From contig JAFKJJ010000546.1 of the NCBI GenBank assembly GCA_017306025.1, positions 1 through 40,272 of the forward strand: 40,272 nucleotides of DNA, read 5' to 3'. Shown one piece after another: positions 416 through 40,272 of this stretch. The translations under genes were made by a program, and so were the position numbers. How positions within the stretch are numbered: position 1 is the first letter of the stretch; every line of letters begins with the position of its first letter. The DNA comes from Planctomycetota bacterium. GTDB taxonomy: Bacteria; Planctomycetota; Planctomycetia; Gemmatales; Gemmataceae. The notes under the pieces are model-generated. The model ran no database searches, was not told the DNA's origin, and saw only the letters and a list, made by a program, of their open reading frames with translations.

Positions 416-430
416 CTCACGGGTCTCGGT

Positions 431-781: not shown

Positions 782-839
782 TGGAAGGATCTCAACCGGT
801 GCTTTGGTTCGTGGAATGATACGAGCAACACGTGTTTCG

Positions 840-909
840 GTGAACCCCGCAAGGGCGGTGGGTCGCGCACCACTTGCGAACGACCCACCGCCCTTGCGGG
901 CGGGTTCAC
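840..909. repeat. Large hairpin between coxC and subunit IV gene
   Basis: Arms 847-865 and 881-899 are perfect 19-base complements around a 15-base loop. An outer 7-bp stem (840-846 with 903-909) extends it past a three-base bulge at 900-902. It begins one base after the coxC stop codon and has no T-run, so it looks more like an mRNA processing or stabilising element, or a palindromic repeat of the genome, than a classical terminator. Confidence 0.7.
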
Positions 910-910
910 C

Positions 911-1723: not shown

Positions 1724-3479
1724 CGTGGGTCTCCTTCTGCATGGGGCCTGCGGGGCCGGTCGGGCCGACCTTCCCGTGAGGGCCTTCCGCGCCGCCCGGC
1801 CCCGGAGGTTCGGGCAGCCCGCGGCCCATCTGATCCACCCCGATCGCGTACTCGTACGGCCCGCACACCACCACCGGCGTGCTGTCGAAGTTGTGGACCG
1901 TCGGCGGGCTCGGGCTGGCCCACTCCAGGCCCGTCGCGCTCCACGGGTTGGCCGGCGACTTCTGGCCGAAGAACAGCGACAGCGTCAGGTACACCGCCGG
2001 CATCAGGTAGCCGATGCCCAGGATGCTCGCCCCGGCCGTGGACATCACGTTGAGGAACTGAAACTCGTCCGGGTAGTTCGGGTACCGCCGCGGCATCCCA
2101 TGGTAGCCCATGATGAACTGCGGGATGAACGTGAAGAAGAACCCGACGATGATGATGGACGCCGCGACCCGGCTCCACCAGTCGGAGTACATCCGCCCGG
2201 TCATCTTCGGCCACCAGTAGTGCAGCCCCGCGAAGTAGCCCATCACCATCCCGCCCACCATCACGAAGTGGAAGTGGGCGACCACGAAGTACGTGTCGTG
2301 CAGGTGGATGTCGGTGCCCAGCGTCGCCAGGTACAGGCCCGTGAGGCCGCCGATGATGAACAGCACCACGAACCCCAGCGAGAACAGCATCGGCGCCTGG
2401 AACGTGATCGAGCCCCGGTAGAGCGTCGCCGTCCAGTTAAAGACCTTGATGGCGCTCGGCACCGCCACGAGCATACTCAGGAGGCTGAACAGCAGCGCCG
2501 CGTAGAAGCTGATGCCCGCGACGAACATGTGGTGGGCCCACAGGAGGAACCCGACCACCGCAATGCCCACGCTCGACCACGCCACCGCGTGGTAGCCGAA
2601 CACGTTCTTACGGCTGAAGCACGTCAGCACCTCCGAGATCACGCCCATCCCGGGGAGGATCATGATGTAGACGGCCGGGTGGCTGTAGAACCAGAACATG
2701 TGCTGGAACAGCACCGGGTCGCCGCCCAGCGCCGGGTCGAAGATCCCCACGCCCCAGGCTCGCTCGACCGCGATCAGCACGAGCGTGATGGCCACGACCG
2801 GAGTCGCCAGGAGCTGGATGAGGCTCGTCGCGTACAGCGACCAGACGAACAGCGGCAGCCGGCTCCACGTCATGCCGGGGGCGCGCATCTTGTGGACCGT
2901 CACCATGATGTTCAGCCCCGTCATGATGGAGCTGAACCCGCTGATGAACGCCCCGACGACGCCCGGTATCACGTACGACTGACTGGCCCGCGTGCTGTAC
3001 GGCGGGTACAGGGTCCACCCGGTGTCGATGCCGCCGGCCAGCACCGACCAGATGGCGAACGCGGCCCCGATCATGAACACGTACCAGCTGGCGATGTTCA
3101 GTTTGGGGAACGCGAGGTCCTTCGTCCCGATCATCATCGGGATGAAGAAGTTCCCGAACACCGCCGGCACGGCGGGGATCAGGAAGAAGAACAGCATCAT
3201 CACCCCGTGCGCGGTGAACGCCCGGTTGTACGCGTCCTCGTCGACGATGAACCCGCTACTGGACAGCAGGTTGAGCCGAACGATCCCGGCCGCGGTCCCG
3301 CCCGCGACGAAGAACACCGAGATCGAGATCAGGTACAGGATGCCGATCCGCTTGTGGTCGACGGTGAACAGCCACGACCAGATCGAGTGGCCGTTGTTCA
3401 GGTAGTCGACCTTCGCCGGTTCGGGCTCGGGGGGGACCGGGGCGGCCGTCAGGCCGCCGTGCGTGACAGCGATGCTCAT
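1713..3479 (-). CDS. coxA: Cytochrome c oxidase subunit I, A2-type
   Basis: A 588-residue catalytic subunit of the terminal oxidase, which reduces oxygen to water and pumps protons. All metal ligands are visible: His91 (haem a) in FTAHGVM; His267 cross-linked to Tyr271 in YSHPAVY (CuB); His316-His317 in WAHHMF (CuB); His402 (haem a3) and His404 (haem a) in [11 protein letters not shown]. The YSHP motif in place of the Glu of GHPEVY marks an A2-type oxidase, as in Thermus caa3, in agreement with the cytochrome c domain fused to coxB. About 12-13 membrane spans are present and the length is normal. The ATG start lies four bases after the coxB stop, and the 3' end overlaps coxC. The proline/glycine-rich C-terminal tail is poorly conserved in the family. 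Confidence 0.97.
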
Positions 3480-3483
3480 GGCG

Positions 3484-4579
3484 TTACTGGCCCCCCTTCG
3501 GCGTCGGCAGCGGCGACGGCGTGCGCTCGGTCGGCGCCCCGTTGGGCGCCGGGAACTGTTCGGTGCGGTCGGGCGTGGCGCCCTTCTTGAGACTGCGGAT
3601 GTACGCGACGAGCGCGTTCAGCTCCTCGGCGCTGACCTGGCTCTCGTCGTAGGCCGGCATGATCGCCTCCCACCCGTCCACGACCTTCAGCCGCGGCCGC
3701 CGGATGGACTCGATGATGTACTGGTCGTCCACGATCTCGGCCCCGCCGCCCCGCAGGTCGGCGCGGCTGCCGTAGAGCCCCTCCAGCACCGGCGCCTTGC
3801 CCGTCGGCGTGGCCGAGTGGCAGCGGATGCACTGGAGCTTCAGGAACAGTTGACGCCCCTCGTGCGCGAGCGACCCGTCCACCGCGTTCTCGGTGCCCTG
3901 CAGCGGCTTGAAGCCCAACAGCCAGTCGTCGAACTCCCGCTCCTCGACGACCTTGATCTTGCCGACCATGAGCGAGTGCCACGTGCCGCAGTACTGGTCG
4001 CAGAAGATGTGGTACTCGCGGGTGGTACCACGTCTGGGTGTAGCGGCCGGGCAGCACGTCCATCTTCTGGCGGAACGCGGGCACGCCGAAGTCGTGGATC
4101 ACGTCCTCGGACGTCAGGACGATCTTCACCGGCCGGTTGACCGGCAGCACCAGCTTGCCGATCGACCGGCGCTCGGCCTCGGTCATGTTCCGCGGGTTGC
4201 CGCCGATGATGACCCGCTGGCCGTTGGGGTACTGCGCCTTCCACATCCACTGCTTGCCGATGACGAACACCTCCATCGCGTCTTCGGGCGGGTGGACGGC
4301 CTTGTTGTAGACGTACGCGCCCCACGCGTAGTAGGTGAGGAACACGAGCAGCGGGACGACGGTCCAGGTGAGTTCGAGCCGCACCGACCCGAGGATGCGC
4401 GGCGTGCTCCCGGTGGTCGCGCCGCGGCGGTACCGCACGCAGAAGTACAGGAGCGCGGCGTACACGGCCCCGCCCACCGCCGCGCTGGTGATCGTGATGT
4501 ACCAGAACAGGGCCTCGAAGTGGCGGGCGCTGTCGGACCCCATCTCGGGGATGAACGGCAACATGCTCGCGGTGGTCAT
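3484..4579 (-). CDS. coxB: Cytochrome c oxidase subunit II with fused cytochrome c domain, frameshifted as given
   Basis: This gene encodes the CuA subunit that takes electrons from cytochrome c and passes them to subunit I. The first frame (from ATG 4577-4579, overlapping the Sco stop as ATGA) gives two membrane helices (about 22-50 and 68-90), the [11 protein letters not shown] motif, and His162 ([10 protein letters not shown]), the first CuA ligand. Near residue 188 (4015-4021) the frame must change by one base to reach [17 protein letters not shown], the rest of the CuA site, then a cytochrome c domain with CIRCH and the C-terminus, ending with TAA at 3484-3486. The span of 1096 bases is one more than a multiple of three. 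The bases around the break may also be short: most homologues have a few more residues between the TW and EYH motifs. Sequencing error, true mutation or recoding are all possible; error is the simplest. Confidence 0.88.
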
Positions 4580-5727
4580 GCGGTCCCCCCTGAGGGCAGC
4601 GTGTTCGGCCCCTCGACGGGGGCGGGCGGGTCTTCGGTGCGGGCCGCCCGTCCGCGGCGGTACGCGATCACCGTGACGCCCAAAACGGACAGGAAGCTGA
4701 GCGCGAGCAGGACCGAGGCGAGGGTGGTGTCGCCGCTCCGCCAGAGGGAGCCGCCCAGCCCCAGCCCGCTCACCGCCACGCAGATCAGAACGAAGAGCAC
4801 GACGCGCCCGAGGACGCCCCGCAGGATGCCCTCCCGCCGGACGGCGATCAGCGCGCCGGCCGCGACGGCCAGGAGCGTGACCAGCCCGCCGATCTGGACG
4901 GCCCGGAGCACGTTCAGCGAGTACCCCTGGTGCAGCCGGTCGTACCGGTAGCACAGGAGCGTGATCTGGTCCAGGAGCGAGCCGCCCTTGCCGTCGGCGG
5001 CCTCGACGAGCGACAGCCGCAGCGTGGTGGTCGGGCGGGTGACCTTCCCGTCCGGCCCCCGCACCTCCGGCCCGGCGAGCTTCTTCTCGCCGCGGTAGCT
5101 CAGGCCGTGGAAGTACCGGGTCACCTTCCCCTGCGGCGACAGGATCACGATGCCGCTGGGGTGGTCGTACTCCTTCAGCATCTTGTCGAACTCGAACCGG
5201 TAGCCCACGGTGTCGAGCAGCGCCGCGATGCTCTCCTTGGTGCCGGTGAGGAACCGCCACCCGCGGTCCGCGCCGGGCCGGCCGTACTCGGTCAGGTACG
5301 CCTTCTTCTTGGCCCGCGCCAGGTCGCCGTGCTCCTTCGGGTCCATGCTCACGGTCACGACGCTGAACTGGTTGCCCGCGGTGAAGTTCGCCGGCATCTC
5401 GCGCAGGGCGTCGAGCACCTCGTTGAGGATCTCCGTGCAGAGCATCGGGCACCGGTAGTAAACCGGCACCAGGATCGTCGGCCGGCCGCCCATCGCGTCG
5501 CCGAGGGCGATCGGCTGCTCGTTCTCGTCGCGGAACGTCAGGTCGAGCGGCACCTGCGCGCCGATCTGTTCCGTGATGCCGGCCTCGGGCCGCGGCCCCT
5601 GGGACCGGTCGTGCTGCGGCACGAGCCCGTCGTTGCCGGCGCGTGCCGGCAGCGGCAGCGCGACGATCGTCGCCAGCGCGGCGGCCGCAACCGGCACCAA
5701 CAGGGTGTACCGCCTGACGCGGGTCAC
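4576..5727 (-). CDS. Sco/SenC-family copper chaperone with C-terminal membrane anchor
   Basis: A 383-residue protein with a signal peptide (residues 1-30) and a thioredoxin-fold Sco domain (about 50-210). The copper-binding motif CPMLC (Cys93, Cys97) and the partner His189 (YDHPSG) are present. Sco proteins deliver copper to the CuA site of oxidase subunit II and act outside the cytoplasmic membrane; coxB directly follows, overlapping by ATGA. The C-terminal part has three hydrophobic segments (about 275-297, 305-325, 338-357), an extension that anchors the protein and is not part of the classical Sco fold. The start is GTG at 5725-5727, overlapping the upstream stop as GTGA. Function is confident from motif and context; the role of the C-terminal spans is unknown. 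Confidence 0.9.
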   Translation of the reverse strand: MTRVRRYTLLVPVAAAALATIVALPLPARAGNDGLVPQHDRSQGPRPEAGITEQIGAQVPLDLTFRDENEQPIALGDAMGGRPTILVPVYYRCPMLCTEILNEVLDALREMPANFTAGNQFSVVTVSMDPKEHGDLARAKKKAYLTEYGRPGADRGWRFLTGTKESIAALLDTVGYRFEFDKMLKEYDHPSGIVILSPQGKVTRYFHGLSYRGEKKLAGPEVRGPDGKVTRPTTTLRLSLVEAADGKGGSLLDQITLLCYRYDRLHQGYSLNVLRAVQIGGLVTLLAVAAGALIAVRREGILRGVLGRVVLFVLICVAVSGLGLGGSLWRSGDTTLASVLLALSFLSVLGVTVIAYRRGRAARTEDPPAPVEGPNTLPSGGTA

Positions 5728-6461
5728 TTCTTCTCCCCCGGTTTCGGTTCGGACTTCTTGGGCGCCTCGGGCTGTTTGGGCGTCTCCGGCTTCTTCGGCG
5801 CCTCGGGCTTCTTGCCCTCGATCTTGGGCACGGGCGGCCGAACGACCGGCGACTCCCCTCCCCCGCGCCCGGCGTTAGACGCGCTCGGGGCGTGCTGGGA
5901 GTCGATCGGCCGGGACCCGTCGGCCTGGACCGGGAACAGCGCCTTCAACTTGTCGTCGCCCAGGTCCAGCACCTTGTCGATACCGTACTTGCCCCCGCCG
6001 GTCTGGAAGAGCGCCGGGTAGTGCTCCTTCGTGGCCCGCAGGTCCTCGGGGTGCAGCTCGGGCGAGTTCCCCTCGGCCGTTTCGGGCCGCGTGATCGCGC
6101 GGGCGAGGTCGCCGCCGGTCCGCTGTCGGAGCACTTCGAGCCGCGGCTGTTCGCGGGTCTGCTTGGCCTGGTCGTCGTGGCCGATCCCGGCGAGCCGCTC
6201 GTTGAGCGGGCGCTTGTTCCGCTCGGCCGCGGCCGGATGCACCCTCGGGTCGGCCTTCGGGTAGGCGATGAACCGGAAGATCACCGTGACCGTCCCGAAC
6301 GCCAGCACGAAGAAAAAGACCACCAGGAGCGGCACGCTGATGACGCTCTTGGCGTCGTAGACGTCGGCCTCGTAGCCGCGGGCGATGACCTCCGGGGGCG
6401 GCGGCCCCATCGGGGCGTGGTCGTCGGCGGCCGGCTGGCTCGCGGGGTTAGTGGGCTGCAT
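5724..6461 (-). CDS. Single-span protein with Lys/Pro/Glu-rich tail, between actF and sco
   Basis: I do not recognise a named family. The 245-residue product has one strong membrane helix (about 45-66, VPLLVVFFFVLAFGTVTVIF), a charged middle region, and a low-complexity tail built from repeats of the type PEAPKKPE (about 210-245). The ATG is preceded by GGAGG, and the first 14 bases overlap the end of actF; its own end overlaps sco by four bases. The tight packing argues for a real subunit or assembly factor of alternative complex III or the oxidase. The segment FRFIAYPKADPRVHPAA after the helix followed by ERNKRPLNERL may be a docking region. An accessory subunit is inference from position only. 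Confidence 0.75.
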   Translation of the reverse strand: MQPTNPASQPAADDHAPMGPPPPEVIARGYEADVYDAKSVISVPLLVVFFFVLAFGTVTVIFRFIAYPKADPRVHPAAAERNKRPLNERLAGIGHDDQAKQTREQPRLEVLRQRTGGDLARAITRPETAEGNSPELHPEDLRATKEHYPALFQTGGGKYGIDKVLDLGDDKLKALFPVQADGSRPIDSQHAPSASNAGRGGGESPVVRPPVPKIEGKKPEAPKKPETPKQPEAPKKSEPKPGEKK

Positions 6462-7899
6462 GGTGGTGCCCCTCCGGCAGCAGGAACGCCTGGTTGTCCG
6501 GGAACAGCGGGCGCTTCTTCAGTTGGTAGAGGAAGTACAGCCCCCACACGCCGCCGACGCCCAGGATCGCGCCGACGTCCATCAGCCACGCCGGGAACCC
6601 GTGGTCCGGCGCGCTGGGCGCGATCCACCACGTCACGTCGACGGCGCAGATCACCAGCAGGTACACCGCGACCACCCGCAGCCGCACCGGGTGCAGCTTG
6701 ATGTTGCGGAACAGGAGCAGCAGGAACGGCAGCGCGAAGTGCAGCGCGATCAGCGCCGCGGACACGTACCACCAGCCCGACCGCTCCCCGCCGTGGTTGG
6801 ACCGCTTCAGGAAGAACGGGATCTCTTCGGGCAGGTTCCCGATCCACACCAGCATGAACTGGGAGAACGAGGTGTACGACCAGAACATGGTGAACGCCAG
6901 CATCAGGGTGCCCATGTCGAGTTGGAACTTCGGCCGCATGTGCCCCTTGAACGGCGGCCGGCCGGCCAAGAGCAGGAACAGCGCCACCGAGAAGGCGAAA
7001 CAGGTGAGGAACTGGTTCACCGCGTAGATGACCGGGAACATGGTCGAGGACCAGCCCGGCTCCAGCGACATCACCCACTGTGTCGCGGCCGCGGTGGTGG
7101 TGATCGCGAAGATGATGAGCCCCGGCCCGGAGAGGTTCGAGAGCTTCTCCAGGTTGCGGTCCACCACGCGCGGGTCGTTCGAGTCGGACGCCGCCCGGCC
7201 CCACGCGTTGAGGAAGTAGATCATCGCGCCCCAGATCGCGAACAACGCGAGCCCGACCCCGATGTAGGCCGGGGCGGAGAGGAACCCGTAGTTGCCCGCG
7301 GCGATCTCCTCCTTCTCCTCGCGCTTGCGCTGGTCGATCGCGCGGTTGTAGAGCCGCATGCCGACCTCGACGGTCTGCTCGCGCTTGTCCGCCCCGGCCA
7401 TCGTCGCCGGCTCGTTCACGTCCTGCTGCGGCGCGTGCTCCGGCTTCGACCACCAGTACGGCGAGAACTCCGCCTCGTGCGTGTTCGCGTCCTTCATCGC
7501 GACCCCGACGGCCAGCGGCGCCCACAACAGGAGCAGGAGCGGCAGCGTGCGGGTCGCGGCCTCGAACGGGCGCGTCAGCAGCAGCCCCCACGACGTCTTC
7601 GCGAGGTAGCGGATCATCAGGAGGGCCATCGCGCCGAGCGGCAGGCTGGCCCAGTAGGTGTAGCCGGTCAGGTAGCCGAGGAGGAACCGCGCCTTGGCGG
7701 CGTGCTTGGCCTCGTCGGTGTTCGCGGCCGACAGGTTCATGACCCCGGCGACGGCGTAGAGCACCCAGCCGGCGATCGCGGCGATCACCGCGACGCGGGT
7801 GAACGCGCCCCAGTCGGGCTGGTCGGTGTGCGCGGGCGGCAGGGTCCCGCCCGCCGGCGGGGCGGTCGACGGGGGGGTGCTCGCGGGGTCGGTGCTCAC
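6448..7899 (-). CDS. actF: Alternative complex III subunit ActF (NrfD/PsrC-like quinol-binding membrane subunit)
   Basis: A 483-residue polytopic membrane protein with about ten helices after a Thr/Pro-rich N-terminus. Position and features match the second NrfD-like subunit of alternative complex III, a menaquinol:cytochrome c oxidoreductase that replaces the bc1 complex. WVMSLEPGWSSTMFPVIY and the long run FTMFWSYTSFSQFMLVWIGN are the kind of helix-loop signatures seen in these subunits. The start is GTG at 7897-7899, overlapping the actE stop (GTGA), so translation is coupled. The end overlaps the next gene by 14 bases. A hydrophilic loop (about 130-200, including KREEKEEIA) interrupts the helices. 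Assignment is confident from gene order plus hydropathy; the precise quinol site cannot be read from the sequence. Confidence 0.9.
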   Translation of the reverse strand: MSTDPASTPPSTAPPAGGTLPPAHTDQPDWGAFTRVAVIAAIAGWVLYAVAGVMNLSAANTDEAKHAAKARFLLGYLTGYTYWASLPLGAMALLMIRYLAKTSWGLLLTRPFEAATRTLPLLLLLWAPLAVGVAMKDANTHEAEFSPYWWSKPEHAPQQDVNEPATMAGADKREQTVEVGMRLYNRAIDQRKREEKEEIAAGNYGFLSAPAYIGVGLALFAIWGAMIYFLNAWGRAASDSNDPRVVDRNLEKLSNLSGPGLIIFAITTTAAATQWVMSLEPGWSSTMFPVIYAVNQFLTCFAFSVALFLLLAGRPPFKGHMRPKFQLDMGTLMLAFTMFWSYTSFSQFMLVWIGNLPEEIPFFLKRSNHGGERSGWWYVSAALIALHFALPFLLLLFRNIKLHPVRLRVVAVYLLVICAVDVTWWIAPSAPDHGFPAWLMDVGAILGVGGVWGLYFLYQLKKRPLFPDNQAFLLPEGHHHAAH

Positions 7900-8723
7900 T
7901 GCTTGCCTCCCGCCGCGTCGAGCAGCTTCTTGATCTCCGGGGACACGTTACCGCCCTGGCTCATCTGCAGCACGCGAATGTAAGCGACGATCTTCCACCG
8001 GTCGGCGGCCGGGATCTGGGCCGAGTAGCTCGGCATGCCGCCGTAGCCCTTCGTGACGACCTCGAAGATGTACCCGGGCGGCACCCGGTCCATCGGCACG
8101 GTGTGCCCCCACAGCGAGAAGCCGCGGGAGATGCCGAGGCCCTGCGGGTTGCTCACCGTGACCTCCTTCGGGTCGACCTTGTGCGTGTGGAACGAGGTCG
8201 GGTTCAGGTACCCGCGTTCCCAGATCTTCCCCTGCCCGTTCCCGAGCGGGCCGTGACAGACGGCACAGAAGACCGTGTACCGCTCCTGGCCGCGTTTCAG
8301 GGCGGCCTGGTCGATCGGGAACGGGAACTCGTTGACGTACACCTTCGGCGCGGCCGGGTCCAGCGGGTTGTACCGCGGGGCGCCGACGGCCCGGAGGATC
8401 TTCTCGGGCTCGTTGAGCGCGCCGACGTCCACCTTCGTGGGCGGCACCGCGTACTCGTAGGACCGCTCCCACTCCTCGCGGGTCAGCCCGGTGGCGATCG
8501 GGTCGGTTTCGAGCCGCTGGGCGCGGTGGATCGTGCCGCGTTCGATCGGCCGGCTGGCCCGCCCGTCCGGGAAGAACTCGGCGTGTTCGAGCGGCCGGTA
8601 GTACGGCTGGTCGGCCATCCGCTGGCGACACCCGGCCCCGGCCGACAGCGCCAGGGTCGCGGCGTATACGGCCCAGAGGACGCGCCGACGATTGGCGCGG
8701 CTGACGTAACGAAGGGCACTCAT
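7896..8723 (-). CDS. actE: Alternative complex III subunit ActE, monohaem cytochrome c lipoprotein
   Basis: A 275-residue exported cytochrome. The N-terminus has a hydrophobic segment ending in SAGAGCRQ, a lipobox, so the protein is probably lipid-anchored on the outer face of the membrane. One c-type haem site, CAVCHG, lies near residue 160, and a likely axial Met follows in GYGGMPSY. After the haem domain comes WKIVAYIRVLQMSQGG, a typical C-terminal cytochrome c helix. ActE passes electrons from the complex towards the oxidase. The start ATG (8721-8723) overlaps the actD stop as ATGA, and the end overlaps actF. Gene order and haem count match the family. Confidence 0.92.
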   Translation of the reverse strand: MSALRYVSRANRRRVLWAVYAATLALSAGAGCRQRMADQPYYRPLEHAEFFPDGRASRPIERGTIHRAQRLETDPIATGLTREEWERSYEYAVPPTKVDVGALNEPEKILRAVGAPRYNPLDPAAPKVYVNEFPFPIDQAALKRGQERYTVFCAVCHGPLGNGQGKIWERGYLNPTSFHTHKVDPKEVTVSNPQGLGISRGFSLWGHTVPMDRVPPGYIFEVVTKGYGGMPSYSAQIPAADRWKIVAYIRVLQMSQGGNVSPEIKKLLDAAGGKQ

Positions 8724-9325
8724 TCCATCACCTCCTCGACCGCCACCGGGTGGAGGTCGTTGAGGAAGGTCCGCGTTTCCGCGAGGTTGAACTTCGGGTC
8801 GGTCGCTTCGATGCACACGAAGAACCGGTCCCTCGTCGCGCGCTCGAAGTTCTTCGAGTTGAACAGCGGGTGGTTGTACCGCGGCAGCCCGCAGATCGCC
8901 ATGAGGCCGAAGAAGCCGGTCAGCGCGGTCGTCAGCACCATCATCTCGAACGTGATGGGCACGAACGACGGCCACGAGAAGTACGGGCGGCCGCCGATGT
9001 TGAGCGAGTAGCCCCAGGTGTTCGCCCAGTACTGCATGATGAAGCCCGAGCAGGCGCCGGTGAGGCCGCCGATGAACATCACCGGCCCCATCTCGGACTT
9101 CGGGAACTTCAGCGCGTCGGCCGCCTCGCCCACCGGGTACGGGCTGAACCCGTCCAGGTGCGTGTAGCCGGCCGCGACGGCCTTCTCGATCGCGTGCGCC
9201 ATCTGGTCGCCGGTCTCGAACATGGCCAACAGGCCGTGCGTGACCGGGACGGTCGGGTCGGCGTGCCCGTGGTCGGGGGCGTGGCCCGGGGCGTGCCCGG
9301 GGCCGGGGGTGACGGTCGTACTCAC
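8720..9325 (-). CDS. actD: Alternative complex III subunit ActD (DUF3341)
   Basis: A 201-residue protein matching the DUF3341/ActD family, a two-helix membrane subunit of alternative complex III. The cytoplasmic part contains AVAAGYTHLDGFSPYPVGE, the family hallmark, followed by two hydrophobic segments (GPVMFIGGLTGACSGFIMQY and FEMMVLTTALTGFFGLMAIC) and a conserved end with DRFFVCIEATDPKF. The start is GTG at 9323-9325, overlapping the actC stop as GTGA; the N-terminus is unusually His-rich (several HAP/HGH units within the first 25 residues). It overlaps actE by four bases. Its exact role in the complex is structural as far as is known. Confidence 0.92.
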   Translation of the reverse strand: MSTTVTPGPGHAPGHAPDHGHADPTVPVTHGLLAMFETGDQMAHAIEKAVAAGYTHLDGFSPYPVGEAADALKFPKSEMGPVMFIGGLTGACSGFIMQYWANTWGYSLNIGGRPYFSWPSFVPITFEMMVLTTALTGFFGLMAICGLPRYNHPLFNSKNFERATRDRFFVCIEATDPKFNLAETRTFLNDLHPVAVEEVME

Positions 9326-10746
9326 GGCGCGTTCTCCATGATCGAGTGACCGCCGCCGCCGCCCTGCTTCTTGGGCAACAGCTCGCGCATCTCGGTGATC
9401 GAGATCATCGGCAGGTAGCGGAGGAACAGGAAGAACAGGAAGAGGAACAGCCCCAGGGAGCCGATCATCGTCGCGTAGTCCCAGAACGTCGGGGCGTAGG
9501 TCCCCCAGCCGGCCGGGACGTACTCCCGGGCCAGCGTGATGACGATCACGTACCGCTCGAACCACATCCCGATGAGCACCGAGATGCAGATCAGCTCCAT
9601 CCAGAACGGACTCGTGCGGATCTTCTTCGACCAGAGGAACGTCAGCGGGAAGACGCAGTTGAACCCGATCAGGCACCAGTACGACCACCCGTAGGGGCCG
9701 AACATGCGCTCCATCGTGGTGCCCCACTCGTAGAGCGTGTGCCCGTACCACGCCATCCAGGCTTCACTGAAGTAGCCGTAGGTGACGAGGAACCCGGTCG
9801 CCAGCATCACCTTGCCCATGATGTCCATGTGGTGGTCGCTGAAGAAGTCCTCCAGCTTGTACCACTTGCGGACCGGCAGCGCGATCGCCACCACCATCGC
9901 GAAGCCCGAGTAGATGGCCCCGGAGACGAAGAACGGCGGGAAGATCGTGGCGTGCCACAGCGGGACGATCGACACGGCGAAGTCGAAGGACACGACCGTG
10001 TGCACCGAGAGCACGAGCGGCGTCGAGATGCCGCCGAGGATCAGGTACACCTTCTCGTACCGCCGCCAGTGGATCGCCGAGCCGCGCCAGCCCAGGGCGA
10101 GCAGGCCGTAGGCGATCTGCTGCCACCGCTTACGGGCCTGGTCGCGGAGCGCCGCGAGGTCCGGGACGAGCCCCAGGTACCAGAACACCAGCGACACGGT
10201 AAAGTACGTCGTGACCGCGAACACGTCCCAGGTGAGCGGGCTGCGGAACTGCGGCCAGACGCCCGCGACGTTGGGGAACGGGTAGAGCCAGTAGAAGAAC
10301 CACGGGCGGCCCATGTGCAACAGCGGGAACAGGCCCGCGCACATGACCGCGAAGATCGTCATCGCCTCCGAGAACCGGTTGATGCTCGTGCGCCACTTCT
10401 GGTGCAGGAGCAGGAGGATCGCGGAGATCAGCGTGCCGGCGTGGCCGATGCCGATCCACCACACGAAGTTGACGATCGCGAAGCCCCAGGCGACCGGGAC
10501 GTTGATGCCCCAGATGCCGACGCCGACGTAGAAGAGCCAGCACACCGCGATCGCCAGGATCTGCAGCATGGCGAACCCGGCCAGGAAGCCGATCCACCAG
10601 CCGCGCGGGTGTTCGCCCTTGAGCACGACCTCGCCGATCGCGTCGCCGACGGAGACCAGGTCGTGCTTGTTCCGCACGAGCGGGTGCATCTCCGGTTCGA
10701 GCGGCAGCTCGGTGGAGCGGGCGGGAGGTAGTTCCGCGGTCGCCAC
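9322..10746 (-). CDS. actC: Alternative complex III subunit ActC (NrfD/PsrC-like)
   Basis: A 474-residue membrane protein with about ten helices, of the NrfD/PsrC polysulfide-reductase membrane subunit family. It carries the first quinol-binding module of alternative complex III. Recognisable segments are FVWWIGIGHAGTLISAILLL, followed by LHMGRPWFFYWLYPFP and SVHTVVSFDFAVSIVPLWH, all typical of this family. The start is GTG (10744-10746) after an AGAGGG ribosome binding site. It lies 75 bases downstream of actB, the one wide gap among the act genes downstream of actB, and that gap holds a hairpin. The C-terminus (PKKQGGGGGHSIMENAP) is a flexible tail. Identity is confident from motifs and order. 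Confidence 0.94.
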   Translation of the reverse strand: MATAELPPARSTELPLEPEMHPLVRNKHDLVSVGDAIGEVVLKGEHPRGWWIGFLAGFAMLQILAIAVCWLFYVGVGIWGINVPVAWGFAIVNFVWWIGIGHAGTLISAILLLLHQKWRTSINRFSEAMTIFAVMCAGLFPLLHMGRPWFFYWLYPFPNVAGVWPQFRSPLTWDVFAVTTYFTVSLVFWYLGLVPDLAALRDQARKRWQQIAYGLLALGWRGSAIHWRRYEKVYLILGGISTPLVLSVHTVVSFDFAVSIVPLWHATIFPPFFVSGAIYSGFAMVVAIALPVRKWYKLEDFFSDHHMDIMGKVMLATGFLVTYGYFSEAWMAWYGHTLYEWGTTMERMFGPYGWSYWCLIGFNCVFPLTFLWSKKIRTSPFWMELICISVLIGMWFERYVIVITLAREYVPAGWGTYAPTFWDYATMIGSLGLFLFLFFLFLRYLPMISITEMRELLPKKQGGGGGHSIMENAP

Positions 10747-16677: not shown

Positions 16678-19600
16678 ATGAGCACAGCACGACGGGTCGG
16701 ACGGTGGGCACTGATCGCGGTCGGCGGGGCGCTGGCCGTGGTGGTCCTCCTCCGTGTGGGCCTCGGTATCTACCTCAACACCGCGTCCGGCAAGGCGTTG
16801 GTCGCCCGGCAGATCACCGCCCGCATCGGAATGCCGGTCGAGGTCACCCGCGTCCGGTTCGGGCTGGTCACTTCCGCCATCGGGCTGAAAGTCTTCGACC
16901 CCTCCGTCGCCGACCGGTCCAGGTCCGAGGTGTTCTCGGTGGAGTCTGCGGACGCGGACATTACGCTATTCGATTTGGCCCGCGGGCACATTGCGCCGAA
17001 AACCGTCGAATTGAAAAACGTGGACCTCCAGCTTCACGTCGACGCCGACGGGAAGGTGCTCACGACGATGCCGAAGATGCCCGAAGGCACCGGCGGGGGC
17101 GCGCCGATGCCCGCGGTAAAGCTCACCGGCGGACGGGTGACGATCCACCAGGACGGCCGCCCGGAGTTCGCGCTGAAGGGCGTGGACGTTCTGGTCGAGC
17201 CGAACGGGGACCGGGTGAAGCTCTCCGGCACGGTCGACGACCCGCTGTGGTCGAAGTGGACCGTCGCGGGCGAGATCAACCAGGCCACGAAGACCGGTTC
17301 GGTCGAGGTGGCGACGCCCGACGGCCCGCTGACGATGGACCGGCTCGGCTCGATCCCGTTCGTACCCGCGGCCGTGTGGAAGCACATCGGCGCGGACGGC
17401 CGCGGCGCGATCGACCTGAAGCTGTGGATGGGCAGCGACCACGAGGTGCATTACGCGATCGAGGTCCGCCCGAACGCCGCGAGCCTCACGCTCCACGACG
17501 CGGAGGTCACGCTGACGCAAGCGGTCGGGCTGGTCCGCGTGTCGGGCGCGAAGATCGAACTCCGGGGCGCGAAGGCGGCGCTCGCGACGGGCACGATCAC
17601 CGCGGACGGGATGGTCGATTTCGGCCCGGAACCGACGGTCGCGAACGTGAAGGTCGGTGCCGAGGGGTTGGACGTGACCCGCCTGCCGGCCGCGTGGGGG
17701 CTGCCACACGACATCGAGGGGAAGTTGCAGGGCAGCGCCGACCTGAAGCTGAAGATCTTCGACAACGGCCGGATCGAGACGGCGGGCGGCGGCGCCGGGG
17801 AGATCGTCGGGGCGAAGATCCGCGGCATCCCGATCACGTTCAAGGTGGAACTGCGCAGCGACGGGCAGCGGTACCGGTTCGACAAGCCGATGGGGGTGGG
17901 GGGTGCGAAGAACCTAACCCCCCAACCCCCTTCCCTGGAAAGGAAGGGGGAGAAAAACCTATCGGATTCCGTCACGTCTTCGATGTCGGCGGAGGCGACA
18001 CCCGAAGTCCCCCCCCTTCCCTTCCCCCGGCCCGCGAGAAGCTCCGCTGACAGGGGCGGGGAGGGAACCGAGAGGGGACGAGGGGGGGTAGGTTCCGCGC
18101 ACCGCGCCGCCCCGCGCACCTGCGCCCAGCCGCCCAAGCCACCCGGTCCCAAACAGCCCGACCCGAAGAAGCCCGCGGACCCCAAAGCCAAGTCCGCCCC
18201 GACCACGCTCGACGCGACCATCGCGCTGCGCGACATCGAGATCGGCGAACTGCTCCAGAAGCTCAACGTGAAGATCGGCTACCGCGTCAGCGGGAAGGTG
18301 ACCGCGGAACTGACGCTCGCGGTGCCGATCGAAAGCGCCGCGAGCCGCTCGGCGTATGAGTTCACCGGGAAGGTGTCGTCGCCGGCGCTGACGCTCGAAG
18401 GGCTCACGATCCGGGGCCTCTCCGCGCACGCGACCTACAAGAACGGGTTCCTCACGCTGCGCGAACTCAAGGGCACGATCGACCAGCCCGGCGACCCGAA
18501 GGCGGCGCCCGGCACGTTCCACGGCACCGCGACCGCGGCAGTCGATCCCGCGGGCGACGTGACCGCCGCTCTCACGCTCGACCGCATCCCGCTCGGCCAG
18601 GTGCTCAAGGCCGTCCCCAACTGGTCGATGGACGTGAGGGGCACCGTCAGCGGCAAGGCGGACCTGAAAGGCCCCTACGACAAGCTCTCCGACACGACCG
18701 CATGGACCGGTTCGGCCGAGGTCACATCGCAAGAGCTGGTCGTCGCAGGTCGCTCGGCAAGGGGCGCGAAGCTCTCGGTGGGCGTCGCGAAGGGCACCGT
18801 CACGCTGAAGGAGCTCTCCGCGGCGGTCGAGGGCATTCCGGTGAACGCGACCGCGACGCTGGAGCTGACCGGCAAGTACCCGTTCGCCGCGAGCCTGAAG
18901 ACCACCGGCACCGACGTCGCCGACCTGCGCAAGCTCGTGCCCGAACTCGAACTTCCCGCGCCGGTGGAGGGCGCACTCGAAACCGACACGCGGGCCACGG
19001 GTACGATTTCGCCGCTGGAATTCACCGCGTCCGGCACGGTGAAGGCGACGAAGCTGACGCTCGCGAAGACGCCCGCGAACAGCCTCGAACTCAAGTGGGA
19101 GGTCACCCGCGACCGCTTCCTCGTGAAGTCTCTGAAGGCGGACGTGTTCGGCGGGTCGCTCTCGGGCACCGCGGACGTGCCGTTCGCGGCCGACAAGGGC
19201 GGCTCGTTCGATCTGGGCTTCAAGGACTTCGACATCGCGGCCGCGACGCCGCTCATCCCGGATTTTCCGGTGAAGGTGGGCGGTAGGGTGTCGGGCGGCG
19301 TGAAGGGCACCATCGCCCCCGCGAAGGAGGGTCAGTCGCGAGTCGGCAACCTCGACGTGGACATCACCGCGCCGAAGTTGACCGTCCAGGGCATCCCGGC
19401 CGAGCGGCTGGTGGGCAAGGCGGCCGTGAAGGGCGGCGTGCTGGAATACTCGCTCGAAGGGAAGACGCTCGGCGGCTCGTTCGAGCTGAAGGGCCGCTAC
19501 CCCGGCCAGAAGAAGGAGGCCGCGCCTGCCGGGGCGGCCCCGGCACGGGCCGGTTGGGGCGGGGGCGACGAGTGGCTTCAGAGTGGTCCGCTCGCTCCGC

Positions 19601-21012
19601 GAGCGGTGCGACACGTCGAGAAGCGCGAGGCGAGTTCCGGTCCCGCTTCGACATCCGCAAAGCAACCGCTCGCGGACCACGCTTTTGTTCGCGCGCAGCC
19701 CAAGGACCGCGGCTCGTTCCGGCTCACCGGCGCCGACCTGTCGCGCGCCGCCGCCGAACTCGGCTTCCAGGCGCTTCGCCCGCTCAGCGGCCGACTGGAC
19801 GTTCAGTTCGACTTCGAAAACGACCTCTCCGCCGGTTCGGGCCGCGTCACCCTCACCGGGCTGCGGTGGGGCGACACCGGCATCACGCGCGACCTCAGCG
19901 CGGTCGTCGTTCTGCGCGACGGGGCGTTGGAGGTGACCGAGGTGAACGGCCTGGTCGCCGGCGGCAGCGTCCGGGGGCGGGCCCGCGTCCTCCTGAACAA
20001 CACCGAGCGCAACTTCTTCTCGCTCGCGCTCACCGGTGCGGAAGCGAAGCGGCTGTTCGCGATCGTCCCGCAGGTCGGCGAGAAGGTGGACGGCCCGGTG
20101 TCGATCACGGTTTACGGGCGGTTCGGGCGGGAGGTGCGCGGGTCGGGCACGCTCACGATGGAGCGCGGGACGGTCGCGGGCGTCACCGTCGCCGGGCTGC
20201 GAGTCCCGTTCAACCTGGCGACCGCCCCCGGCGGCTACGGGCGGTTCACGATCCGCGACGCCAGCGTCCACGCCGGCAGCGGCACCGCCACCGCGGACCT
20301 CACGGCCCACTGGGGCACCGAGACGCGCCTGGACGGGCAGGTGAAGCTCGTGAACGTACCGTTGCGCACGGTGGCGCCGGGCATCGGCGACTTCGCGCTC
20401 CTGGGCAACGGGCGCATCACCGGCCGGCTCGACGTCGCCGGCACCAACGTGCGCTCGCTGGACGACCTCACCGGCACGTTCGTCGCGCGGCTCGGCAACA
20501 CCTCGCCGCGCGAGATCCCGCTGCTCCAGCAGGCCGTGCCGTTCCTCAACACGGCCAACCTGGTGAAGCCGTTCGACGGCGGCGACATCCGTGCCAGCCT
20601 GAACCGCGGCGTGATCCGCGTGCAGCGGGTGACGCTCGTCAGCCCCAACGCCCAGATCTTCGCCGAGGGCAACGTCACCACGAGCGGCCGCGTGGACATG
20701 AGCGTGATCGCGCACACCGGCTCGATCGGCCCGGAGGCGCCCGCGTTCCGGCTGCTCGGACTGCGGCTGCCGGTGATCGGTCCGGTCCCGGTCGGGTTGC
20801 TCCGCGACCTGGGCGACGCGCTCTCGAACCGCACGATCCGGCTGTCCATCACCGGCAGCGTGAGCGACCCGCAGGTGAAGGTGAACGTCGGGGCGCTGAT
20901 CTCCGAAGAGGTCGCGCGGTTCTTCCTGAGCCGGTTCGTGCCGGCCGACGCCGCGGGCGTGCTGGGCGTGAGCAGCGGGATCGGCGCGCTCTCGGGCAGC
21001 AACAGGAAGTAG
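16678..21012 (+). CDS. Giant AsmA-like membrane-anchored protein
   Basis: A 1444-residue protein. It has one N-terminal membrane helix (about 11-33) followed by a very long beta-rich periplasmic region. Repeated motifs such as GTISPLEFTASGTVKATKL, LDGQVKLVNVPLRTV and GNGRITGRLDVAGTNV, and the C-terminal LLGLRLPVIGPVPVGLL, are typical of the AsmA/TamB-like superfamily, whose large members bridge the envelope and are linked to lipid transport to the outer membrane. The start ATG (16678-16680) has GGAGG seven bases upstream. Two segments look foreign: about residues 405-500, low-complexity and Pro/Lys-rich, and about 950-1005; both coincide with palindromic DNA repeats, and the reading frame stays open through both. 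It stands alone in its operon as far as can be seen. Confidence 0.8.
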   Translation: MSTARRVGRWALIAVGGALAVVVLLRVGLGIYLNTASGKALVARQITARIGMPVEVTRVRFGLVTSAIGLKVFDPSVADRSRSEVFSVESADADITLFDLARGHIAPKTVELKNVDLQLHVDADGKVLTTMPKMPEGTGGGAPMPAVKLTGGRVTIHQDGRPEFALKGVDVLVEPNGDRVKLSGTVDDPLWSKWTVAGEINQATKTGSVEVATPDGPLTMDRLGSIPFVPAAVWKHIGADGRGAIDLKLWMGSDHEVHYAIEVRPNAASLTLHDAEVTLTQAVGLVRVSGAKIELRGAKAALATGTITADGMVDFGPEPTVANVKVGAEGLDVTRLPAAWGLPHDIEGKLQGSADLKLKIFDNGRIETAGGGAGEIVGAKIRGIPITFKVELRSDGQRYRFDKPMGVGGAKNLTPQPPSLERKGEKNLSDSVTSSMSAEATPEVPPLPFPRPARSSADRGGEGTERGRGGVGSAHRAAPRTCAQPPKPPGPKQPDPKKPADPKAKSAPTTLDATIALRDIEIGELLQKLNVKIGYRVSGKVTAELTLAVPIESAASRSAYEFTGKVSSPALTLEGLTIRGLSAHATYKNGFLTLRELKGTIDQPGDPKAAPGTFHGTATAAVDPAGDVTAALTLDRIPLGQVLKAVPNWSMDVRGTVSGKADLKGPYDKLSDTTAWTGSAEVTSQELVVAGRSARGAKLSVGVAKGTVTLKELSAAVEGIPVNATATLELTGKYPFAASLKTTGTDVADLRKLVPELELPAPVEGALETDTRATGTISPLEFTASGTVKATKLTLAKTPANSLELKWEVTRDRFLVKSLKADVFGGSLSGTADVPFAADKGGSFDLGFKDFDIAAATPLIPDFPVKVGGRVSGGVKGTIAPAKEGQSRVGNLDVDITAPKLTVQGIPAERLVGKAAVKGGVLEYSLEGKTLGGSFELKGRYPGQKKEAAPAGAAPARAGWGGGDEWLQSGPLAPRAVRHVEKREASSGPASTSAKQPLADHAFVRAQPKDRGSFRLTGADLSRAAAELGFQALRPLSGRLDVQFDFENDLSAGSGRVTLTGLRWGDTGITRDLSAVVVLRDGALEVTEVNGLVAGGSVRGRARVLLNNTERNFFSLALTGAEAKRLFAIVPQVGEKVDGPVSITVYGRFGREVRGSGTLTMERGTVAGVTVAGLRVPFNLATAPGGYGRFTIRDASVHAGSGTATADLTAHWGTETRLDGQVKLVNVPLRTVAPGIGDFALLGNGRITGRLDVAGTNVRSLDDLTGTFVARLGNTSPREIPLLQQAVPFLNTANLVKPFDGGDIRASLNRGVIRVQRVTLVSPNAQIFAEGNVTTSGRVDMSVIAHTGSIGPEAPAFRLLGLRLPVIGPVPVGLLRDLGDALSNRTIRLSITGSVSDPQVKVNVGALISEEVARFFLSRFVPADAAGVLGVSSGIGALSGSNRK
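17892..17950. repeat. Palindromic repeat element inside the AsmA-like gene
   Basis: G-rich 17892-17904 faces C-rich 17917-17930, and CCCCCTTCC (17926-17934) pairs perfectly with GGAAGGGGG (17942-17950). The purine/pyrimidine-rich, repeat-like tract continues to about 18090. The core CCCCAACCCCCT is shared with the element in the DUF1549/DUF1553 gene (30134-30191). It is translated in frame as a low-complexity insert. Confidence 0.65.
19583..19680. repeat. MITE-like 98-bp segment with terminal inverted repeats, inside the AsmA-like gene
   Basis: The segment is bounded by GTGGTCCGC (19583-19591) and its exact complement GCGGACCAC (19672-19680). Near its left end CCGCTCG (19588-19594) and CGAGCGG (19600-19606) form a small hairpin. 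It codes in frame for a stretch unlike the flanking AsmA-type repeats. It could be a non-autonomous mobile element remnant. Confidence 0.55.
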
Positions 21013-22177: not shown

Positions 22178-23536
22178 TCACGCCCGACTGAACACCGGCT
22201 TCGGCTCGTCCTTCACCTCCTTCGCCCCCTCGCTCGCCGCGGCGTCCTCCGTCGGCTTCTCGCTCGACGGCGCCGGCGCGGCCGGGTTCTTCAGCCGCTC
22301 CACGAACGCGGCCATGCGGTTCAGCCCCTCGCGCAACCGGCCGTCGTCGGCCGCGAAGCTCACCCGAACGTGCCCCGCCCCACTCGGCCCGAACGCACCT
22401 CCCGGGCCGACCAGGACGCGTTCCTCCTTCAGCAAGCGTTCGGCGAAGGCGCGACCGTCGAGCCCCAGCGCCGAGACCGGCACCCACACGAAGTACCCGC
22501 CGCCGGGCAGTTCCGGCTCCAGCCCCATCGCGCGAAGCCGGTCCGCCGTGTACTGCCGCTTCGCGCGAAAGCGGTCCGGCACGTCGGGCGGAGGTGGTTC
22601 GGAGAGCAGCCGTGCCGCGGCCTGCTGGCAGACCGGCGGGACGTAGGGCGCGGTGAGGTTGGCGGCGAGCTGGCACGCGCGGACGAGGTGCCGCGGCCCG
22701 GCGAGCCACCCGACCCGCATCCCCGGCTGGCCGAACTCCTGCGACACCGAACCCGCGGTGATCGTGAGCCGGTCGGCCCCCGGCATCGCGGCCAGGCTCC
22801 GCGGACGTTCCGCCGCGCCGTAGCGGAACGACGTGAACGATTCGTCGAGATACACGAGCACGCCGTAGCCGCCCGCGATCCACGCGATGTGCTCCAGGTC
22901 CTCGTTCGCCAGGCACCCGCCCGCAGGGTTGCCCGGATCGCTGATGACGAGCACCTTCGCGCCGCGCATCGCGCGCTCGAAGTCCGCCGCGATGTACCGG
23001 CACCGCCCGTCTTCGGTCCAAGTCGGCACCCACCGTATGTTCGCGTGCCGCGACTTCGCCCCGAGCGAGAACAGCGGCGAACACGGATCGAACAGCACGA
23101 CGCGATCGCCGGGGTTGACGAACGCGTCGAGGGCCGCGGTGTAGGCGGCCGTCGCGCCGTGCGTCGCGACGACGTCGGTATCGGGATTTACGGTGCGGCC
23201 GGCGCGCCGGTAGCGCTCGGCCACGGCGCGGCTCAGTTCCGGCAGCGTGACCGGTACGCGCCCCGGCGCGGAGGGCGCGTGCGTGCTCCCGACGCTCACC
23301 GCACCCCGCGCGGGCGGGGCGTCCGGCGTGGGCTGGTTCAGGTCGATGGCGTCCGGCCCCGGCGCGTGCGGCACGAACGCCGAATCGAGCAGCTCGTCGA
23401 GCGGCGCACTCAGGACACGATCGGAGTAGTATTTGAGGTACGCGGTGCCGCCGCCGGTGAGCCGCCGCGCCCGGGGGGTGACCCCCACGAGCCGCGTGCG
23501 GACGAGCAGCTTCGTGAGCCAAAAGGGAATCGCCAC
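22178..23536 (-). CDS. Class I/II aminotransferase-fold protein lacking the PLP lysine
   Basis: A 452-residue protein of the fold-type I aminotransferase family. Recognisable are the cofactor-side GATAAYTAALDAFVNPGDRV region, the Asn of SDPGNPAGG, the Asp of YLDESFTSF, and the substrate-binding Arg of GHVRVSF. At the position where SxSKxxxxPGxRxGW holds the PLP-binding Lys, this protein has SVSQEFGQPGMRVGW: Gln266 (CAG, 22739-22741) instead of Lys. The family Tyr after the Asp is also absent. It is thus unlikely to be a normal transaminase. The start is GTG (23534-23536), with GGAGG seven bases upstream. The C-terminus is a disordered Ala/Lys/Pro tail. Substrate and role are unknown. Confidence 0.85.
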   Translation of the reverse strand: MAIPFWLTKLLVRTRLVGVTPRARRLTGGGTAYLKYYSDRVLSAPLDELLDSAFVPHAPGPDAIDLNQPTPDAPPARGAVSVGSTHAPSAPGRVPVTLPELSRAVAERYRRAGRTVNPDTDVVATHGATAAYTAALDAFVNPGDRVVLFDPCSPLFSLGAKSRHANIRWVPTWTEDGRCRYIAADFERAMRGAKVLVISDPGNPAGGCLANEDLEHIAWIAGGYGVLVYLDESFTSFRYGAAERPRSLAAMPGADRLTITAGSVSQEFGQPGMRVGWLAGPRHLVRACQLAANLTAPYVPPVCQQAAARLLSEPPPPDVPDRFRAKRQYTADRLRAMGLEPELPGGGYFVWVPVSALGLDGRAFAERLLKEERVLVGPGGAFGPSGAGHVRVSFAADDGRLREGLNRMAAFVERLKNPAAPAPSSEKPTEDAAASEGAKEVKDEPKPVFSRA

Positions 23537-26378: not shown

Positions 26379-27323
26379 TCAGTAACTCGGGACCACCTGA
26401 CCGTCGGCCGGATCGCCCAGGAGCGTCCAGGCGGTCGCGTCGATGCCGCTGCTGAGGCTCCGCACCGACCCGTCGCCGAACGAGACGTTGATTCCCCCGG
26501 CCGTGAACGCGTGGGCCACGTCCATGTTGCAGTTCTGCTGCGTGACCCCGGTCTGGAACTTCGTCCCGACCGACCGGCCGTTGAACATCGGGGCGTAGGA
26601 CGAGTCCCACCCGCCGTGGAACAGCAGGTCGGCGCGGTTCTGCGCCTCGCACACCATCAGCTTCTCGGCGAAGAACATCGTCTGCGAACTGCCGTCGGGG
26701 ATCGTGTCGATCTTGTAGCCGGTCCACCAGTACCGGGTTTCGGAGTACGGGTTATTGCGTCGCGCGAACACCTGGTAGTTGAACGCGTAGCTGGTCGCCG
26801 ACCAGTTCGTGTTCGCCCCGCCGCTGAGCCAACTGTAGGAGAGGGTGAAGTAGTCGCGCGGGCTGGGGTCGTGCGGCGCCTTGAACGTCTTCACCTGGGC
26901 CGTCCACACGTCGATGCCGCCGGCGTTGGAGAACAGTTGCTGCCCGTTGCCCGGCTTGTACAGCGCGTCCTGCTCCACGAACGGCATCAGGTGGTAGTAC
27001 AGGGTGACGTCGCCGGTGAGCGTCTTCCACGGGGTGTTGTTCCCGCCGTTCTGCCAGGCGCTGGCGCTGGCCCCCGGCTCGCCCTGGTGGTTCCACCACG
27101 GGTCCCACGCGTTGGGCAGGATGCCGCCGCGGGCGTCGGCCGCGGAGTGGACCGCCAGCGTGATCTGCTTCATGTTGTTCTGGCTGCTCATGCGTGCGGC
27201 GGCCTCGCGCACCTTCTGGACGGCCGGGAGCAGAAGACCGATGAGGATCGCGATAATCGCAATCACCACCAACAACTCGATGAGCGTGAAGCCCCGTGCG
27301 CGGAGGCGCGGAGAAGAGGACAT
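26379..27323 (-). CDS. DUF1559 pseudopilin-like protein
   Basis: A 314-residue protein. Its N-terminus has the type IV prepilin signal [20 protein letters not shown], with the expected Gly-Phe cleavage site and Glu5, followed by [16 protein letters not shown], the start of the DUF1559 family. Near the C-terminus is the family signature [20 protein letters not shown]1559 proteins are hugely expanded in planctomycetes; their export and assembly are thought to resemble type II secretion pseudopilins, but the function is unproven. The ATG (27321-27323) is at the usual distance. It lies 98 bases downstream of the DUF1501 gene, with a hairpin between. Confidence 0.93.
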
Positions 27324-34836: not shown

Positions 34837-35907
34837 TCAGTAGTCGCCACCCGCCACCTCCCCCCCATCGCGGGTGGACAGCGCCACCCACGTGTCCGGC
34901 CGAATGAACGTGGTGATGAACCGCACCGACCCGTCACCGAACAGCACGTTGCACCCGTTGCCGTGCTCGCCCCACATCTCGTCCGTGTGCCCGAACGGGT
35001 CGTTGGGCGCGTGGATGATGACCTGCGGGTGGTCGTGCGTGTCCGGCCCGCTGTGGACGCCCACGAGACACCCGGCGCCGTTGTTCTCCGACGGCCACGG
35101 CCGCATGTCGAGCCGGGGCGGGGTCACCGCGCCCGGCACGACGCCCACCCACGTCTTGTTGCTCAGGACCGAACTGTGTTCGCCGATGAACACCGTGTTC
35201 GACAGGCCGTCGGAGACCATCGCGACCGACACCTTCGAGTTCCGGTAGAACGGGCCGTCGATCCGGGCGGCCTTGCCGCCGTTCTCCGGGACGGGTTCCG
35301 GGGTGTCGTAGTCGTAGCAGTACGCGGTAGTGCGGCCCCACGGCTGGTGGATGCCGGCGTTGGTGACGTAGTGCGCGTGCGCGAACCGGATGCGGCTCCC
35401 GTCGCTCCGCGCCATCGGGGTGCCGTGCCGGACGTCCGCTCCCTCGCGCTCCACGTCGAACCCGTCGCTCCCGCCGGTCGCCGACGGGCAGAGGAACGCC
35501 GCCACGCGCGTCTGCACCGCGGCCGCGTTCGCCGGCGCCCAGCACGGCTCGTTCAGGTTGAACTGCCGGTACAGATTGTCTTGTTCCAGATGCGGCAGCA
35601 GGAAGACGCCCCACGCCCAACCGGGCGGACCGTTGCGGTACTCGTCGCCGTAGGCGATGCCGTAAGCCGAACCGTCGAGCGAAGTGCTCGTGGTGACGTA
35701 GGCGGGCGGAAACACCTTGTTCACGCCCTCGTAGTTGTGCAGTGCGAGGCCGATCTGTTTGAGGTTGTTCTGACACTTCAGGCGCGCCGCAGTCGAACGC
35801 ACCTTCTGCACGGCCGGTAGCAGCAATCCGATGAGGATGGCGATGATCGCGATCACCACCAACAACTCGATCAGCGTGAAACCGCTTCGGAATCGCAGCA
35901 CTTTCAT
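34837..35907 (-). CDS. DUF1559 pseudopilin-like protein
   Basis: A 356-residue protein. The prepilin signal [20 protein letters not shown] is at residues 8-27, followed by the family start [20 protein letters not shown] and LKQIGLALHNYEG. A DGLSNTVFIGEHS motif in the middle and NVLFGDGSVRFITTFI near the end are the standard DUF1559 signatures. The N-terminal helix should be processed by a prepilin peptidase and the rest exposed outside the membrane. ATG at 35905-35907. Upstream lies an AT-rich inverted repeat (35936-35971), likely a control site; downstream is a small membrane protein gene. Function is not established. Confidence 0.94.
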   Translation of the reverse strand: MKVLRFRSGFTLIELLVVIAIIAILIGLLLPAVQKVRSTAARLKCQNNLKQIGLALHNYEGVNKVFPPAYVTTSTSLDGSAYGIAYGDEYRNGPPGWAWGVFLLPHLEQDNLYRQFNLNEPCWAPANAAAVQTRVAAFLCPSATGGSDGFDVEREGADVRHGTPMARSDGSRIRFAHAHYVTNAGIHQPWGRTTAYCYDYDTPEPVPENGGKAARIDGPFYRNSKVSVAMVSDGLSNTVFIGEHSSVLSNKTWVGVVPGAVTPPRLDMRPWPSENNGAGCLVGVHSGPDTHDHPQVIIHAPNDPFGHTDEMWGEHGNGCNVLFGDGSVRFITTFIRPDTWVALSTRDGGEVAGGDY

Positions 35908-39449: not shown

Positions 39450-40272
39450 GTGCGCGCCGCCTTGCACAAGCGTGGCTTCACGCTGATCGAGCTGTTGGTC
39501 GTGATCGCGATCATCGCCATTCTGATCGGGCTCCTGTTGCCCGCCGTCCAGAAGGTCCGCGAGGCCGCCTCCCGGGCGAAGGGCCAGAACAACATGCGGC
39601 AGCTCACCCTGGCCGCGATGAACTTCGAGTCCGCCAACGGGGTCCTGCCCCACGTCTACGAGCTCCAGACCCCGGACTTCCTCCAGGCCAAGTACCCGTT
39701 CGGCTACGCGACCTCGGACCCCTCCACCTTCAAGGTCGCGTCGGTGGACCCGAACCAGGGCATCCTGAGCCCCTACTACGAGGGGAACAACAAGATCAAC
39801 GTGTCCCCGAAGTTCGAGGCGAACCAGGCCTCCGTCTCCCTCGTCTTCCTGGGCGCGACGGGGGGCTACGCCTTCAACCGGAACTTGCTCGCGAGCCCCG
39901 CGAGCCCACAATCGTTCACGGTCAAGGCGCCGGTGAAGGGCCGGACCATCGCCACCATCGCCGCGACCTCCCAGACCTACATGTTCGCGGAGATCCTCCT
40001 GCTCAATTCGAGCGGGGGGCTGACGGAGCAAGGGTCCTGCATCTTCGGCTCGCCCCTGATCCCGAACGGCAGCAACACGCAGGCCACCGCCAGTTCGGGC
40101 GTCGTCTTCTCCCCGTTTTGGTGGAACGGCCTGACGATGGTCTCCTTCGTGGACGGCCACGTCGAGCTGCGCGGGCCGCTGGCGCCGGAGCCCCCGGTCG
40201 CCCCCTTCGCCCAGGCGACCTGGGACGCGGCCAAGACGACGTACAAGACCATCCAGCCCGGTTTCTTGCCCC
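39450..40272 (+). CDS. DUF1559 pseudopilin-like protein, 3' end missing, under a cobalamin riboswitch
   Basis: The gene begins with GTG (39450-39452), preceded by AAGGAG at seven bases, and runs off the right edge after 274 codons. The prepilin signal [20 protein letters not shown] (residues 7-26) and [20 protein letters not shown] are classic DUF1559. The middle contains a [20 protein letters not shown] segment and the C-terminal family signature [10 protein letters not shown] is visible, so most of the domain is present. Compared with the other two DUF1559 proteins in the window it is shorter before the signature. The riboswitch immediately upstream is the unusual feature: regulation by B12 points to a role in cobalamin uptake or in B12-dependent physiology. 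That link is inference; the products further downstream are not in the window. Confidence 0.93.

Follow-up and report, generated by a model that had tools for sequence, protein, structure and literature searches.

The PMP/PLP-dependent 3-dehydratases ColD and E1 are fold type I proteins with a histidine in place of the Schiff-base lysine, and this histidine is both catalytic and conserved. Tryptophan synthase beta (TSB) belongs to another fold type. The TSB-like protein of eudicots, a pseudoenzyme related to PLP enzymes, is no longer catalytic and acts by way of a partner (PMC12727527). LCB1 (SPTLC1) of serine palmitoyltransferase is an inactive PLP-enzyme relative without the PLP lysine and also acts through a partner (PMC3794620). 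In the related guanitoxin cyclase GntC, the K219A mutation abolishes activity (PMC10367076). The protein described here, from the Gemmata lineage of the Planctomycetota, resembles LCB1 in that the PLP lysine is missing. However, LCB1 pairs with a homologous active subunit, whereas the Gemmata genomes hold no active paralogue of the subfamily (one match each). TSB-like is a paralogue beside an active enzyme, while the Gemmata protein is the single copy of its subfamily. In contrast to ColD and E1, it has glutamine at the lysine position, which drifts among relatives, and histidine is found in one relative only. The best match among curated families is to GntC and the capreomycidine synthases (NF041364, TIGR03947) with 187.2 bits, far under the 415-bit cut-off of NF041364, and glutamine stands where GntC needs K219. 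The Pyrococcus aspartate/aromatic aminotransferases 1gd9 and 1dju have the same fold (Z 45, 27% identity) and the equivalents of D222, S255, R266, and R386 in pig aspartate aminotransferase, but the Gemmata protein differs from them in lacking the Schiff-base lysine and the equivalents of Tyr225 and Trp140, and in having an N-terminal extension and an FSR tail. The literature searched contained no paper on this protein.

The window, by which we mean the whole analysed stretch of 40,272 nucleotides, contains the gene with the features listed in Table 1. The bases directly 5' of the GTG codon read ACGGAGGCACCGTC, a good ribosome-binding site with GGAGG, and the GTG start is common to the homologues, giving the N-terminus VAIPFWLTKLL. 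The Pfam match to Aminotran_1_2 indicates that a fold type I domain is present, and the top phmmer match among solved structures is Pyrococcus aspartate aminotransferase. The AlphaFold model (mean pLDDT 82.4, pTM 0.80) matches class I aminotransferases over residues about 30–418, with an rmsd of 2.4 Å to 1gd9 and 2o0r. Model and sequence together show that the fold is the aminotransferase fold, in line with a preliminary description which held that the fold and perhaps the cofactor pocket remain; the pocket is partly kept. The N-terminal extension is also present in Lys-bearing relatives and lies mostly outside the aligned part of solved aminotransferases. Although it is hydrophobic and basic, its helical moment is low and we therefore do not claim a membrane anchor. 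A MocR-type wHTH DNA-binding domain was not found: Pfam gives the aminotransferase domain only, and the N-terminal extension has only about 39 residues.

Table 1 Features of the gene for the lysine-less protein, in window coordinates.
Feature	Coordinates	Strand	Basis
Coding sequence, lysine-less aminotransferase-fold protein	22178..23536	(-)	452 aa, GTG start; ORF and Pfam, homologue start, GGAGG upstream
N-terminal extension, residues 1–39, PFWLTKLLVRTR...SD, hydrophobic and basic	23420..23536	(-)	Structural matches mostly start at residues 30–39
Aminotransferase class I/II fold, about residues 39–411	22304..23422	(-)	PF00155, E 1.1e-37; Foldseek/VIA Z 45 to 1gd9, 2o0r
Codon CAG, Gln266, position of the PLP Schiff-base lysine	22739..22741	(-)	Sequence reading, phmmer alignment, relatives
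Low-complexity variable linker, about residues 416–446	22199..22291	(-)	Both models of low confidence here; on average 12.7 changes per column at 418–445
C-terminal motif PVFSRA (PxFSR[AV]-COOH)	22181..22198	(-)	F449, S450, and R451 invariant in 29/29 clade members

The codon for residue 266 lies within the SxSK...PGxRxGW-type block SVSQEFGQPGMRVGW. The preliminary description had read it as glutamine at the PLP lysine, and the phmmer alignments to 1gd9, 1dju, and Thermus aspartate aminotransferase confirm this, as Q266 falls on that lysine free of gaps. From the phmmer alignments and knowledge of the family we take Asn203, Asp231, Ser263, Arg274, and Arg391 to be the equivalents of N194, D222, S255, R266, and R386 of pig aspartate aminotransferase. 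All five are present in the window's protein, so the earlier observation that the family Asn, Asp, and Arg are retained holds, but it had not covered two changed pocket residues: Phe234 replaces Y225 and Ser153 replaces W140 (pig numbering). Nor had it noted that Y70* has no clear equivalent.

In many relatives the C-terminus consists of a variable linker and, behind it, PxFSR plus a single small residue, which is A or V except for one S and one T. We refer to these relatives as the tailed clade, which for counting was delimited by the tail itself and has 29 intact members. Lysine is missing at position 266 in all 29, near-complete genomes among them; 22 members have Q, two have A, and the others have H, P, Y, G, or a deletion. 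The equivalents of Tyr225 and Trp140 are missing throughout the clade, and D231, the Asp of the pyridine nitrogen, and R391, the Arg of the substrate carboxylate, are invariant. Since an entire clade is without the lysine, we reject a sequencing error or an isolated mutation, one of the two outcomes that could have overturned the preliminary reading. The other, a substitute lysine, is likewise rejected at the sequence level: none of the Lys columns is invariant across the tailed clade (the best is K194, 26/29), and the window's protein has no Lys within 20 residues of Q266.

Nearly all members of the subfamily belong to the window's family, in which 52 of 95 genomes have a match (E ≤ 1e-35) and 43 have none; 397 sampled genomes of the class added one member outside the family. 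Within the genus Gemmata the gene is present in 17 of 19 genomes, with Gln in 16 of the 17 and His in one. Conservation of Gln is limited to the near clade; in more distant Lys-less relatives residue 266 is Q, P, A, G, or Y, or is deleted. The relatives with Lys at 266, one of them from Zavarzinella formosa, are all at 49% identity or below. Throughout the tailed lineage there is one subfamily copy per genome (E ≤ 1e-35), from which it follows that the lysine was lost in the orthologue itself and not in a spare duplicate. A second Lys-less group has Ile or Val at the lysine position (L095, L096, L029/L097, L098, L100, L121, L122). There the N194 and R266 (pig numbering) equivalents are mostly gone too, and the D222, S255, and R386 equivalents are kept. 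Outside the tailed clade, Lys is also missing from two paired rows, which have W, and from a single row, L030, which has Y. One sequence from a draft genome, L046, has Pro at the lysine position and a frame broken before the C-terminus, which may be a sequencing error.

In a tree of 58 rows, built with column 266 left out, at least three changes are required to explain the distribution of Lys and non-Lys. The AU test weakly rejects a scenario in which all Lys-less rows go back to one loss (p-AU 0.040), and it does not reject the tailed clade as a single group (p-AU 0.28). The lysine has thus probably been lost more than once; because a number of deep branches are long and have poor support, the exact count of losses is uncertain. 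Among the 30 columns that are invariant in Lys-bearing relatives, column 266 is the most changeable in the tailed clade, with 6 parsimony steps, and it lies at the 60th percentile of all core columns for changes. The N194-equivalent column goes from 1 step to 7 steps in the tailed clade, where Asn203 is repeatedly lost. The columns of G108, D222, S255, and R386 take 0 steps there (Gly127, Asp231, Ser263, and Arg391 never change), and Arg274 seldom changes. The catalytic position is released and part of the pocket is kept. Close Q/Q pairs have dN/dS values of 0.04–0.20, and close pairs of Ile members in the second Lys-less group have values of 0.06–0.13. These low values show purifying selection and that the gene is maintained.

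Two facts tell most and were absent from the preliminary description: the drift of position 266 across the lineage and the invariant C-terminal PxFSR(A/V) motif. What is new here is that a disordered linker with this motif ends the proteins of the Gln lineage and of no other. No Lys-bearing relative and no member of the I/V group has the tail. Of the other Lys-less rows, the only ones without it are the pair with W and the row with Y (L030), both distant, and L046 with its broken frame. A residue that turned invariant at the same time as the tail is Gly377, in the VxPG loop. A degenerate DNA pattern covering the motif and the stop codon matches the gene in the window's genome and in 9 of 12 other Gemmata-genus genomes. 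The pattern is strict, missing AGR arginine codons and a final Ser, and it missed the members in two genomes (G004, G006). With this pattern, no other protein in the 13 genomes has a credible C-terminus of this kind, the sole other match not being of that form. A general sorting tag is therefore not supported for Gemmata. Lys-bearing relatives end in AA in 9 of 13 cases (L083, L084, L023, L026, L091, L027, L101, L102, L118), compared to a background of 5.6%, and members of the I/V group often do so too. This end resembles that of the tmRNA tag of these bacteria, AEPQYSLAA, and is possibly a degradation signal that was replaced in the tailed clade. In two AlphaFold monomer models made with different alignments the tail is disordered (pLDDT about 30–45), and docking of the tail is seen with neither.

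We consider it probable that the Gemmata-lineage protein is a non-catalytic aminotransferase-fold protein, a pseudoenzyme that works by binding and uses its tail as a docking motif. This is the best explanation because the lysine is gone, no residue substitutes for it, the position drifts, and a new invariant motif has appeared at the end. An ancestral single-copy PLP enzyme would have lost its Schiff-base lysine in place, as the tree and the single copy suggest. Position 266 has since drifted, as the alignment shows, and the lysine-less lineage has acquired a disordered tail with PxFSR(A/V)-COOH at its end. The folded body, probably dimeric as in related proteins, may serve as a scaffold or ligand sensor, whereas the C-terminal motif, being free, would dock on a partner protein; as the tail is disordered in the monomer models, we infer this docking only. 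Asp231, Ser263, and Arg391 may hold a small ligand non-covalently or serve the fold. Catalysis is presumably absent. The proposal of a binding or regulatory protein in the preliminary description thus appears likely, given the lost lysine and the kept fold and partial pocket in the sequence. A more specific version, which we offer tentatively, is the in-place conversion, probably repeated, of a single-copy aminotransferase of one bacterial family into a dedicated non-catalytic adaptor. Its function would lie in the PxFSR(A/V)-COOH end as a docking motif that a receptor might read, and the old pocket might act as its ligand sensor.

The protein could still be an enzyme, with PLP, PMP, or an already formed aldimine of PLP and an amino acid bound non-covalently, and carry out a reaction that needs no lysine, as do the His-type PMP-dependent 3-dehydratases. 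Residues for the pyridine nitrogen, phosphate, and substrate carboxylate do remain, with Asp231, Ser263, and Arg391 never changing and Arg274 rarely, and because the D222, S255, and R386 equivalents are fully kept, the sequence is compatible with bound PLP, PMP, or an amino acid and with some degree of chemistry. However, nothing is conserved at 266, Asn203 is repeatedly lost, the Tyr225 and Trp140 equivalents are missing in the clade, and the I/V group keeps the D222, S255, and R386 equivalents too, which hints at a structural reason. We regard an enzyme as unlikely, and one based on glutamine chemistry in particular, because Gln is not conserved; the unusual reaction offered earlier as an alternative is weakened, Gln being kept only in the near clade and replaced by H, P, A, G, Y, or a deletion elsewhere. 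A role as the inactive partner in a heteromer whose active subunit is an ordinary aminotransferase from another locus, like LCB1 with LCB2, seems slightly less likely again. Proteins of the class I fold form dimers with interfacial active sites, and the window's own genome has other aminotransferases at 24–30% identity to the lysine-less protein, but the genomes of this lineage have no Lys-bearing member of the subfamily (one match each), and no aminotransferase gene adjoins in the neighborhoods examined.

It is improbable that the protein gates itself, with the C-terminal motif folded into the old substrate pocket and Arg391 holding the carboxylate of the motif. The motif is specific to the lysine-less protein in the Gemmata genomes searched, Arg391 is invariant, and Gly377 became invariant along with the tail; against this, neither model places the tail with confidence and Arg391 is just as invariant in tail-less relatives. 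A decaying gene heading for loss is hardly credible and is disfavored: the catalytic residue is gone, 43 of 95 family genomes have no match, and L046, from a draft genome, has a broken end, but dN/dS is well under 1, frames are intact in nearly all members, and the tail motif is invariant. The subfamily offers a within-family series from a PLP enzyme that keeps its lysine to a Lys-less protein with several replacements and probably at least two losses. Relatives exist on either side of the change from Lys to non-Lys, which is marked by the new invariant tail motif. The series makes the conversion of an enzyme fold into a binding protein without gene duplication testable. Pfam-based annotation will label the Lys-less proteins aminotransferases, though an internal aldimine is impossible.

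The gene upstream is small and belongs to no known Pfam family; downstream are a lipoprotein-like gene and a convergent cupin gene. No conserved operon is found among the genomes examined. Recurrent neighbors, namely a 427-residue exported protein, a 235-residue protein, a cupin, and a sigma-factor-like protein, lie mostly on the opposite strand and are not constant. As the neighborhood varies between genomes, it suggests no pathway. Elsewhere in the window, positions 1–10746 (-) hold a gene run that by sequence look resembles a candidate alternative complex III and cytochrome c oxidase cluster, and positions 16678–21012 (+) encode a 1444-residue AsmA-family protein (Pfam 5.3e-16). Start segments of the pilin-like type are a common expansion in planctomycetes, and three proteins in the window, at 26379–27323 (-), 34837–35907 (-), and 39450–40272 (+), have a nearly identical pilin-like start.
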